Translations under genes and position numbers: made by a program
Assembly: GCF_001592265.1 (NCBI RefSeq)
Contig: NZ_BCWP01000032.1
Location: 1-39,559, forward strand
Length of the DNA stretch: 39,559 bases
Origin: Curvibacter delicatus NBRC 14919
GTDB lineage: Bacteria; Pseudomonadota; Gammaproteobacteria; Burkholderiales; Burkholderiaceae_C
Direction of reading: 5' to 3'
Notes under the pieces: generated by a model
The model's input: only the letters and a program-made list of their open reading frames with translations
Database searches by the model: none
What the model was told of the DNA's origin: nothing
In this document: positions 12,916 to 30,988 of the stretch, piece after piece
How the letters are laid out: every line of letters starts with the position of its first letter
How positions within the stretch are numbered: the stretch's first letter is position 1

Positions 12916-12979
12916 GAATGCTATCAAAACAGGAGCTGTTGGCGCAGATCCGACGAGGCCCTTAGCCGAATTTGATTTG
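12916..12979. repeat. degenerate ~60-bp dispersed element, copy A
   Basis: Begins GAATGCTATC and contains GGAGCTGTTGGCGC and GAGGCCC. It aligns without gaps to copy B (24904), about 40 of 62 positions identical by hand count. It is the only fully intergenic copy of the five, in the 304-bp gap upstream of the TSUP gene, and its AT-rich end abuts the T-run of the minus-strand terminator. Confidence 0.7.
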
Positions 12980-12980
12980 G

Positions 12981-13010
12981 AAAATAAAAAAGCACCGGGG
13001 TGTCCGGTGC
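12981..13010 (-). terminator. intrinsic terminator downstream of the GMC oxidoreductase
   Basis: Perfect 7-bp stem GCACCGG / CCGGTGC (12992-12998, 13004-13010) with a 5-nt loop. It is followed on the minus strand by TTTTTTATTTT. It ends transcription from the minus-strand gene at 13190, or a small RNA, before the TSUP gene. Confidence 0.8.
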
Positions 13011-13095
13011 CTTGTGAAAACCATCTGCTCTGGATGGTGCAAATCTTGTTGAGATTATCGGGTGTCTTCCTCGGCTCCTCCCGCGCGGAGCCTGT
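12981..13095 (-). ncRNA. candidate structured RNA or structured 3' UTR ending in a terminator
   Basis: Read on the minus strand, four hairpins follow each other: GGCTCC/GGAGCC (13092-13073, loop carrying GGGAGG), AATCT/AGATT (about 13055-13041), ACCATC/GATGGT (13038-13020), and GCACCGG-ACACC-CCGGTGC (13010-12992). The last is followed by a run of Ts to about 12981, making an intrinsic terminator. This may be an independent small RNA, or a processed 3' UTR of the GMC oxidoreductase gene whose stop is at 13190. No convincing promoter was found and no known RNA family was recognised. The remaining ~95 bp up to 13189 show nothing clear. Confidence 0.4.
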
Positions 13096-13189
13096 GGCCC
13101 GCTGGTAAGTGGCGTGAGTTTACCCGGCGGCGCGGGGTGATGGACACGGGTTTTCCCTGAGTGGGGGATGCGTGGTGCTGCGGGTGTTT

Positions 13190-29113: not shown

Positions 29114-29782
29114 ATGGCCATTGCCTTGCCGCTGTTTCCGCTGCAGACGGTGCTGTTTCCCGGCGGCGTGCTGTCGCTGCGCATCTTCGAGGTGCGCTAC
29201 CTCGATTTGATCGGGCGCTGCCACAAGGAAGGGGCGCCGTTCGGCGTGGTGAGCCTGACGCAAGGGCAGGAAGTGCGCCAGCGCCAACGTGACCCCGACG
29301 CCACCGACGGCGAGGCCTTCGAGACGGAGTCTTTCCAAACGGTCGGTACGTTGGCGCACATCGACAGCCTGGAGCGGCCGCAGCCGGGGTTGATGGTGAT
29401 CCGCTGCCACGGTGGTCGGCGTTTTCGCTTGGGCAGCAGCGAACAGCTCAAACACGGCTTGTGGGTCGGGCAGGCCGAGTGGCTGCCCGATGACCCGCCG
29501 GTGCCGGTGCCGGCAGACCTGGCGTACGTGCGGCGCGGGCTGGAGCAGCTGTTGGCCCAGGTGCAGGCGCAAGGTGATGCACAGAATTTTCCGGTGCAAG
29601 CCCCGTACCGTTGGGACGACTGCGGCTGGCTGGCCAATCGCTGGAGCGAGCTGCTGCCGGTGAGTCCGCAACTCAAGCAGCAGTTTCTGACGATCGACAA
29701 CCCGCTGCTGCGTCTGGAACTGGTGGCCGATCTGCTGGAACACCTCAAGATCGGCGATCCGCCCGCAGCCGGGCCGGCCTGA
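29114..29782 (+). CDS. LON substrate-binding domain protein
   Basis: A 222-residue protein made of the N-terminal substrate-binding domain of Lon protease without the ATPase and protease parts. PLFPLQTVLFPGGVLSLRIFEVRYLDLI at the start is diagnostic; GTLAHI and GLMVIRCHGGRRFRL belong to the same beta-rich fold. A helical C-terminal part ends at residue 222. Such stand-alone proteins are common in proteobacteria and their job is unclear. It starts 4 nt after the amidohydrolase gene and ends 2 nt from the convergent corA. Confidence 0.9.
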   Translation: MAIALPLFPLQTVLFPGGVLSLRIFEVRYLDLIGRCHKEGAPFGVVSLTQGQEVRQRQRDPDATDGEAFETESFQTVGTLAHIDSLERPQPGLMVIRCHGGRRFRLGSSEQLKHGLWVGQAEWLPDDPPVPVPADLAYVRRGLEQLLAQVQAQGDAQNFPVQAPYRWDDCGWLANRWSELLPVSPQLKQQFLTIDNPLLRLELVADLLEHLKIGDPPAAGPA

Positions 29783-29784
29783 GA

Positions 29785-30888
29785 TCAGCGTCCGCTGCGC
29801 TCCAAGTAGCGCTTGCGCCAGAACAGCAGTGCCAGCGCCAGCGCAATCAGGCCCATGGACGTCATGGCCCACCAGAAGCCGCTGTCGCTGTGCAACAGTG
29901 GGATGTGCTCGAAATTCATGCCGAAGATGCCGGCGATCAGATTGAGCGGCAGGAAGATGGCGGTCAGCACCGTGAGCGTGCGCATGATGTCGTTGGTGCG
30001 GTTGCTCTGGGCGTTGAAGTGCATCTGCACCGCGGTCTCGGCGCTTTGTTCCAGCCGGCGCACGTGGTGCACCACGCGCTCGATGTGTTCCAGCACGTCG
30101 CGGCTGCGCACCTGCAGCAGGTCGCGCTCGCGCTGCGCGGCGGGGGTGGTTGCCTCGGGCCAGGTCTTGACGGTTTCGATCCAGTCCTGGATGGCGGCGC
30201 GCTGGTCTTCGCAGATTTCGTCGAGCTGGTGCAGCGACAGGCGCGCTTCAAGCAGGGCGGCCCAGTTGTTGAAGCGGGTGCGCGGGTTGAGCAGCTCGGT
30301 CTGCCAGTGGTCGAGTTGGCGCGTGAGTTCGCGCCGCAATTCCAGAAAACCGTCGACCATCTGGTTGACCAGGCGCAGCATCAGGTCGGCCGCGGAGGTG
30401 GGCAGACGGCTGTTGGCATTGCGGATGTCGGTGGCCGTGGACTGCAGCAGGCGGGTCGCATAGGCATCACGCGCTGCGCAGTCGGCCGGGTGCACCGTCA
30501 GCAGCACGCGCTCGAACACCGCAAAGCCGACCGGGCTGGTGTCCAGGCGCTTGAGGATGGGCGGGCCGCTGCGTTTCTGCGGTTTGGCCGGGGTTGGAGA
30601 AGGGGCTTCCGCTGTGCTGCCTGCCGCCGCCAGCCGGCGGAACACCAGCAGGTCGTACTGCGAGGTGTAGTCGAAGTGCGAGGGCAGGTGCGAGTTGAGC
30701 AGGTCGGACACGTGCAGGTCGACCAGTTGCAGGCCGCACAAGGCCTGAAGCATCGCCTGGATCGGCGCCAGCTGCTCGCCGAACTCCTGGCGCGTGCAGG
30801 CGATCCAGACATGACCGAGCTCGGGCAGGCGGTCCGGCAGTGCCGCGCTTTCCACCACACCGCCGGGACTGATGCTGAAAACACGCAT
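29785..30888 (-). CDS. corA: CorA family magnesium/cobalt transporter
   Basis: A 367-residue pentameric-channel subunit. A large N-terminal cytoplasmic domain with long helices precedes two C-terminal membrane helices. The signature GMN lies between them in NLIAGIFGMNFEHIPLL, and the protein ends in Arg/Lys (WRKRYLERSGR). Family members import Mg2+ or Co2+, and some export Zn2+; the exact ion cannot be told. I chose the ATG at 30888 (MRVFSISPGG) with AGGA upstream; a longer frame adds 15 residues of low-complexity leader. The 81-bp gap to hemB contains repeat copy D. Confidence 0.92.
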   Translation of the reverse strand: MRVFSISPGGVVESAALPDRLPELGHVWIACTRQEFGEQLAPIQAMLQALCGLQLVDLHVSDLLNSHLPSHFDYTSQYDLLVFRRLAAAGSTAEAPSPTPAKPQKRSGPPILKRLDTSPVGFAVFERVLLTVHPADCAARDAYATRLLQSTATDIRNANSRLPTSAADLMLRLVNQMVDGFLELRRELTRQLDHWQTELLNPRTRFNNWAALLEARLSLHQLDEICEDQRAAIQDWIETVKTWPEATTPAAQRERDLLQVRSRDVLEHIERVVHHVRRLEQSAETAVQMHFNAQSNRTNDIMRTLTVLTAIFLPLNLIAGIFGMNFEHIPLLHSDSGFWWAMTSMGLIALALALLFWRKRYLERSGR

Positions 30889-30929
30889 GGGAGGTTCCTG
30901 ATGGGGGTGATGGGAGATGGGGTTATGGG

Positions 30930-30988
30930 TCAAATAAGCCCTTAACCCTTGTCTGATATGCGCGAGCCGCTATTTGTTTTGTAGCAAT
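30930..30988. repeat. degenerate ~60-bp dispersed element, copy D (overlaps hemB 3' end)
   Basis: CAAATAAGCCCTTAACCCTT, the core ATATGCGCGAGCCGCTAT and TTTGTTTTGTAGCAAT. It is the best-preserved copy and the reference for the alignment of copies C and E. Bases 30970-30988 encode the last residues and stop codon of hemB, so the repeat fixes the C-terminus of that protein. Confidence 0.7.

Follow-up and report, generated by a model that had tools for sequence, protein, structure and literature searches.

Uptake sequences of the Neisseriaceae and Pasteurellaceae, comprising DNA uptake sequences (DUS) and uptake signal sequences (USS), occur in hundreds to thousands of copies per genome with gene-terminus and frame biases, as excerpts of PMC2346458 describe. 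Their cores measure ~9–12 bp, and several dialects reach 2,245 to 5,918 copies per genome in excerpts of PMC3630211. Rickettsia palindromic elements (RPEs), enterobacterial repetitive intergenic consensus (ERIC) sequences, repetitive extragenic palindromic (REP) sequences and bacterial interspersed mosaic elements (BIMEs) are described as insertions or hairpin-forming repeats (in part in excerpts of PMC10969869). For the Comamonadaceae, excerpts of PMC5217627 (2017) print two motif pairs as potential novel motifs with no function: GCTTAT(N)5AAGCG, with 114 copies in Acidovorax ebreus TPSY, and ATAGCT(N)22CAAAAG, with 125 copies in Polaromonas naphthalenivorans CJ2. Here we analyse a 67-bp site that occurs five times (sites A to E) in the window, the 39,559-nucleotide contig NZ_BCWP01000032.1 of Curvibacter delicatus NBRC 14919 (genome G000), and that recurs throughout this genome and those of two sister species (G003 and G024).

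Abundance and anatomy of the 67-bp site

A preliminary description of the window had aligned the five places to one degenerate pattern. That they form a genuine family was borne out by profile searches: in 413 kb of G000, nhmmer detected all five copies (E 7.4e-11 to 4.7e-7), and 58 matches lie at E<0.001 against none in the reversed sequence. This sample is enriched, its regions having been picked around a core pattern with 33 matches genome-wide (17 for the backward pattern); three of the 33 (in L002, L008 and L023) were excluded by eye from the first seed alignment, a second L002 copy was used later, and alignment A1 retains 52 rows after exclusion of the six weakest of the 58 copies. An unselected 400 kb of G024 gave 42 matches at E<0.01 and none reversed, a density of ~1 per 9 kb that extrapolates to ~350 sites per genome, at the low end of the range of hundreds to thousands given for uptake sequences. 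R1, the model used for genome-wide search, returned at least 150 matches in G000, every one listed at E<1e-7, and scored the window copies at 36.5 to 47.6 bits (its match counts of 150, 123, 20 and 150 in separate searches are all lower bounds). Mean pairwise identity among the 58 copies is 50%; because the maximum is 76%, recent duplicates are absent. Rfam gave no match in the window at gathering scores and none on any site of six loci at a relaxed threshold, the six core strings of the site did not occur in the literature text searched, and a plasmid search with one copy in distant mode, which is weak evidence, found no match.

Information content rises and falls sharply at columns 2 and 68, with flat flanks, and totals 54 bits before small-sample correction (about 50 bits). 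Columns 6–22, here called P1, read GCTMY-N7-RKAGC with an A/T tract at the centre; a GCTNGCGCA block and then ACRAGG follow, and a second palindrome-like block, GGSCY-NN-RGSCC, occupies columns 43–54. An A/T tract lies at columns 56–59 and AA at columns 67–68. Peaks of A/T content are spaced ~21–22 bp apart, about two helical turns. The middle of the site seems to come in two forms, A32 with G44 or T32 with C44; with T32 and C44 it carries the inverted repeat GCGCTT...AAGCGC, as does the A. ebreus pair in print.

Occurrences of the two motif pairs overlapped site matches in 11 of 11 and 1 of 1 cases (in 2.43 Mb, not deduplicated and chosen around sites), and the pairs stand in register in 2 and 1 of 181 nonredundant copies, starting at columns 30 and 18. 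They are thus very likely fragments of the 67-bp site. The A. ebreus pair and the site both prefer convergent over divergent neighbours (44 versus 4 for the pair in the excerpts of PMC5217627, 18 versus 3 for the site). The excerpts describe short and mostly intergenic pairs and make no mention of an extent of 67 bp, of selection or origin in place, of carriage by viruses or of losses.

Selection, placement and history

Constraint on the site was gauged at 24 G000 loci that could be anchored by both flanks in the G024 DNA retrieved. At 23 of these the site is retained in G024 with a spacing of 69–71 bp; L018:5617 keeps P1 only. In the 20 pairs with a spacing of exactly 70, substitutions were found at 36 of 540 positions (6.7%) in the 27 high-information columns, against 98 of 360 (27%) in 18 mid columns and 110 of 440 (25%) in 22 low columns. 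The contrast between high and low columns has a Fisher p of 7.6e-16, and the flanks of these pairs differ by ~11%. The mean position weight matrix score in G024 is 50.4, compared with 25.2 (sd 2.0) under neutral simulation. At third codon positions of 11 intragenic pairs, 13 of 104 (12.5%) changed in high columns versus 239 of 1015 (23.5%) in flanks (p 0.009), and the constraint therefore acts on the DNA. We regard it as highly probable that this is a selected double-stranded DNA site. Locus-specific retention of alleles at columns 10, 14, 18, 19, 57 and 58 (5 of 120 changed) was also considered and dropped as not significant, because 53 transitions and 57 transversions occur among the 440 positions of the low-information columns.

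Compensatory changes in the palindromic core, for which the preliminary description had asked, were not found: the arms do not covary. The P1 column pair 10–18 varies independently (CA 22, TA 22, TG 7 and CG 7 of 58 copies), the tested structure pairs at 57.5% versus 56.9% in shuffles, with 144 of 500 shuffles as high, and RNAalifold predicted no pairs. Coupling was scored for 2,076 column pairs in the 181 nonredundant copies (54 from G000, 59 from G024 and 68 viral). At z>=4, 79 pairs couple (30 neighbours, 18 at a distance of 2–3 and 31 further apart), and z stays at or below 2.3 for every arm pair of P1 and the second block. The loop pairs 12–16 and 11–17, placed symmetrically, do couple, with standard pairs no commoner than expected, and columns 32 and 44 take part in several of the distant couplings (A with G, T with C). 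In viral copies, columns 34–44 pair at 0.62 and columns 37–44 at 0.60, each versus 0.43 expected. A hairpin or pseudoknot RNA was rejected because the arms of P1 and the second block lack covariation; the 67-bp site is most probably a double-stranded DNA signal and not structured RNA.

Placement was analysed for 126 copies, about two dozen loci being counted in both G000 and G024, with our own codon-usage gene calls. That the frequent position inside genes is the unusual point, as had been proposed, was not supported: 66 copies lie wholly inside genes, compared with 82% expected for random 67-mers, whereas 35 overlap a gene end (9% expected) and 25 are intergenic (9% expected). Gene interiors are thus avoided and gene ends preferred, and sites favour 3′ ends. 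Intragenic copies fall in one frame phase in 49 of 66 cases (p 1.5e-11), with 41 antisense and 25 sense (p 0.06). Among the 59 other copies with two neighbours, 18 lie between convergent genes (145 of 1,021 gene pairs) and 3 between divergent genes (151 of 1,021). Stop codons are overlapped by 23 copies in sense and 15 in antisense orientation, and 14 of the 23 sense overlaps end at column 18 or 21. Host genes include the housekeeping genes folP, lpxB and dnaX.

The statement in the preliminary description that similar sequences are scattered through Comamonadaceae was supported. Of 250 genomes sampled from the family, 82 have R1 matches at E up to 1e-6, as do 56 of 141 genera, and scanning named genomes with a very strict pattern yielded four stretches (Polaromonas sp. 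A23, a Rhodoferax metagenome-assembled genome (MAG) twice, and a Comamonadaceae MAG); 16 genomes of other families in the order had no match at E up to 0.001. P1 occurs 230–245 times in G000, G003, G024, G287 and G021 and 193 times in G011 (controls 4–10), 25–50 times in nine other genomes (controls 4–12), which fits relics, and 1–22 times in the remaining eleven. R1 had no match in G012, G007, G002, G001 or G010.

In G021 (245 P1) and G011 the right half of the site is weaker. Of 19 G021 rows, 7 have a right-half score >0 (4 rows were picked by R1, and one locus is counted twice). In G011 the copies of the SpoU-methylase gene, lpxB, L018:9983, folP and site D score 51.9, 37.8, 23.7, 12.9 and 7.1, and site A and L018:5617 are no longer recognisable; the SpoU-methylase and lpxB copies score -25.8 to -49.7 in G015, G012 and G007. 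A three-protein tree with midpoint rooting places G011 and G021 outside the G000/G015/G012 group (node support 64 and 47), and by identity G015 is nearer to G000 than G011 is. Because sites that a more distant relative has at the same loci are missing from closer ones, these data suggest that the sites predate the split and that G015 and its relatives lost the whole set.

Spacing between sites is near random (coefficient of variation 0.98 in G159 and 1.15 in G024). Within G000 contigs, orientation agreed in 98 of 128 cases versus 88 expected (p 0.0024), a test that covers 128 of 150 rows, with at least one eligible contig (C10) left out; we do not claim a replication-strand bias, as the single-contig genome G159 shows none (p 0.27). 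In the otherwise nearly site-free genomes G013 and G008, matches cluster on contigs C26, C29 and C56 and on contig C70, respectively, a pattern that imported islands or contaminating contigs would give.

A stringent pattern retrieved 66 viral-contig stretches with 68 sites; these loci were chosen for holding the pattern, and some contigs may include host flanks. The right half scores >=10 bits in 42 of 66 untruncated viral sites (63 distinct sequences). Outside the chosen sites, the 577 kb of viral DNA contain 21 further matches, with none reversed at E<1. Of the viral sites examined, two are placed at the 3′ end of, or directly behind, a portal gene (L162:1294-1361 and L207:11036-11103); others adjoin a primase-like gene or fall within a large gene that gave several phage matches. 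Searches of ten viral proteins against PHROGs matched six, and four were without match. At the place of the portal gene, L177 and L216 carry a 389-amino-acid open reading frame (ORF) of the same size.

Origin of the copies and their state in the window

Ten copies in two 20-kb regions, nine of them genic by codon-usage gene calls, were compared with the motif-free genomes G015, G012 and G007. Five of the nine genic copies have an identical length in G015 (gap 70): those in folP, the SpoU-methylase gene and lpxB, and two in a UvrD-helicase/nuclease gene. The DUF4149 copy is three bases longer in G015, and the third helicase-gene copy, the dnaX copy and L018:1434 differ in length from the relatives. 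The folP segment over the site aligns without gaps to the best solved dihydropteroate synthase match (5usw); its alignments to the second and third matches each contain one pair of one-residue gaps that offset each other. In lpxB the alignment over the site is likewise ungapped, so that both genes encode ordinary conserved protein there, and the SpoU-methylase segment gave a weak, gapped match to a TrmH-family structure. Insertion is ruled out for these five copies, which arose or were perfected by substitution at ordinary gene length. Equal lengths for some copies and indels for others therefore argue for in-place substitution in the former and a possible insertion in the latter; origin in place is probably the general rule. 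Reading such places as inserted copies of an element accordingly fails for five of nine coding copies and may hold for others, including four of the window copies.

Neither of the two refuting outcomes named in the preliminary description was observed. Profile matches far exceed chance, and ordinary protein conservation does not explain the site because orthologues without the motif exist.

The five window copies (Table 1) share 33 to 43 of 67 positions pairwise. The hand alignments of the preliminary description were reproduced for 12916 against 24904 (40/62); for 28209 against 30923 the count is 36/59 (40/67 over the whole element) rather than 39/59. The copies have a GC of 0.43–0.49 versus 0.646 for the window, and the statement that four of the five overlap coding sequence holds. 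The signal-peptide placement of C and D assumes an upstream ATG start; the codon-usage gene calls start both genes within the site.

All five are in the same place in G003 and G024. They are absent from the six to ten other congeners in which both flanks were found; the exceptions, degenerate in appearance, are D in G011 and E in both G011 and G021: P1 of D is recognisable in place in G011, and E scores 26.7 bits with R1 in that genome. Site A is absent from ten other congeners compared, among which G007 and G002 have about equal spacing without the motif. Six relatives lacking site B are 27–39 bp shorter at this place, and site C shows a length difference of 9–57 bp from closer site-free relatives.

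Table 1. Positions of the 67-bp sites and a further repeat in the window
Feature	Position	Strand	Context	Remarks
Site A	12916-12982	+	Intergenic, upstream of TauE/SafE-family gene (12118-12885, -)	R1 46.5 bits; adjoining terminator-like hairpin seen in sequence
P1 palindrome region of site A	12920-12936	+		GCTMY-N7-RKAGC, columns 6-22
Site B	17213-17279	-	Wholly within LysR-type regulator gene (16746-17681, +)	Antisense
Site C	24904-24970	+	Lipoprotein signal-peptide region of ORF 24899-25540 (ABC_trans_aux)	
Site D	28209-28275	-	N-terminal signal-peptide region of ORF 28192-29109	Antisense
Site E	30923-30989	-	Overlaps hemB 3′ end (30970-31974, -)	Provides hemB TAG stop
P1 palindrome region of site E	30969-30985	-		
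~115-bp repeat	14988-15102		Between two genes	GC 74%

The window also holds a different repeat of ~115 bp (Table 1), with partial copies of 72–88% identity in many places and in at least 9 of 12 congeners among the matches listed, including congeners without the 67-bp site; by description it is like the beta-proteobacterial repeat element (BRE) in GC and size. Further repeats of ~60–120 bp lie at L017:14811-14912, 1786-1909, 6803-6901 and 10202-10264, each common to two or three of G012, G015 and G007, and the genus seems rich in such repeats.

Candidate roles of the site

The explanation that we favour, with a probability of roughly 0.47, combines a selected DNA site, an origin partly in place and a role as an uptake-type self tag. 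One or more dimeric sequence-specific proteins would bind P1 and the second block and would bend or wrap the stretch that separates the A/T tracts. A receptor preferring DNA with the site would create a copying bias (drive) that accumulates and maintains sites, and lineages losing the receptor would lose their sites. Taken by itself, and by analogy with the uptake sequences of Neisseriaceae and Pasteurellaceae, the role of a genome-wide self tag is proposed tentatively. Like DUS and USS as described in excerpts of PMC2346458 and PMC3630211, the site is spread over the genome in genic and intergenic positions, and favours gene termini and one in-frame orientation; it may also have lineage dialects, as they do. 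It differs in being much longer, mostly sparser and present in viral contigs. Evolution in place, as known of DUS and USS, is matched by the five equal-length coding copies of the two regions compared, whereas indels separate window copies A, B, D and E from their counterparts in relatives. With less conviction still, we consider that Comamonadaceae and their phages may share a genome-marking system: a composite site of 67 bp and ~50 bits, in part made by substitution within ordinary genes, kept at the same loci from species to species in lineage dialects, and shed in full once a dedicated receptor or architectural protein is lost.

Several observations weigh against the self tag and its partial origin in place. 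At 67 bp the site is far longer than the 9–12 bp of uptake cores, and at ~1 per 9 kb it is sparser than most uptake sequences; its carriage by viral contigs is not simply predicted by uptake; and the analysis turned up neither a receptor nor competence data. The 31 of 79 couplings that span more than three columns may reflect dialects. Four of the nine coding copies are of unequal length, and net length differences from closer site-free relatives amount to 79–82 bp at A, 27–39 bp at B, 44–51 bp at D and 56–74 bp at E, so that insertion is possible for those four coding copies and for these window sites.

The length differences at A and E, together with hundreds of dispersed copies, are what a miniature transposable element (MITE, RPE or REP-like) would leave if it had spread by insertion, genes included, and later been selected or exapted. 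This is improbable: it is refuted for the five coding copies of equal length in G015, with folP and lpxB aligning over the site, there are no recent copies among the 58, and 23 of 24 loci are unmoved between G000 and G024. RPEs, ERIC and REP/BIME sequences resemble the site in being dispersed and short, with palindromic parts and some copies in genes, and differ in that the site has five non-inserted coding copies and arms that do not covary. The lack of arm covariation may also set it apart from the REP/RAYT system, a tagged hairpin repeat with a Y1 transposase gene. BRE, in excerpts of PMC3110155 (Hot et al. 2011), is likewise a repeat of Comamonadaceae and Bordetella with some coding copies; as described there, it is ~90 bp or partial, has a mean GC of 69% in Bordetella and is often tandem. 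The 67-bp site differs in its length and its GC (43–49% in the window), and tandem copies of it were not seen in the alignments, no separate search having been made.

A chromosome-organising or topology site, wrapped over its 67 bp by a nucleoid, segregation or gyrase-type complex, kept where genes tolerate it and carried by phages as residents of the same cell, is the main competitor, though a doubtful one. Such a role would accommodate the A/T peaks and the two palindrome-like blocks, the near-random spacing, the viral copies, and the scarcity of divergent and abundance of convergent placements. Against it, ~50 bits per site greatly exceed the ~14 bits that would suffice to single out ~350 sites in 3.76 Mb and suit drive better than need, G159 has no replichore strand pattern, and nearly whole sets are gone in close relatives. 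We lean slightly to the uptake-type tag over this role because the information far exceeds what marking needs and because placement biases are shared with uptake sequences. Few divergent placements, sites in housekeeping genes and conservation over 67 bp make it very improbable that the sites are bound by an ordinary transcription regulator in control of a large regulon, despite the resemblance of P1 to a dimer site. Least probable of all is an RNA element (terminator, small RNA, ribozyme or mRNA-stability hairpin): 3′-end enrichment, the sense stop overlaps ending at column 18 or 21 and the excess pairing of viral columns 34–44 and 37–44 would fit one, whereas the non-covarying arms, the lack of an Rfam match in the window or on the sites of six loci, and the occurrence of both orientations at stops and within genes speak against it.

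To our knowledge, sites this long, hundreds strong and fixed under selection have no close parallel, the short uptake sequences being nearest. The analysis very probably joins two unexplained printed motif pairs into one site and warns that dispersed palindromic repeats in genes are not always relics of transposons. A protein that reads the site may govern DNA uptake or chromosome structure in a large environmental family.

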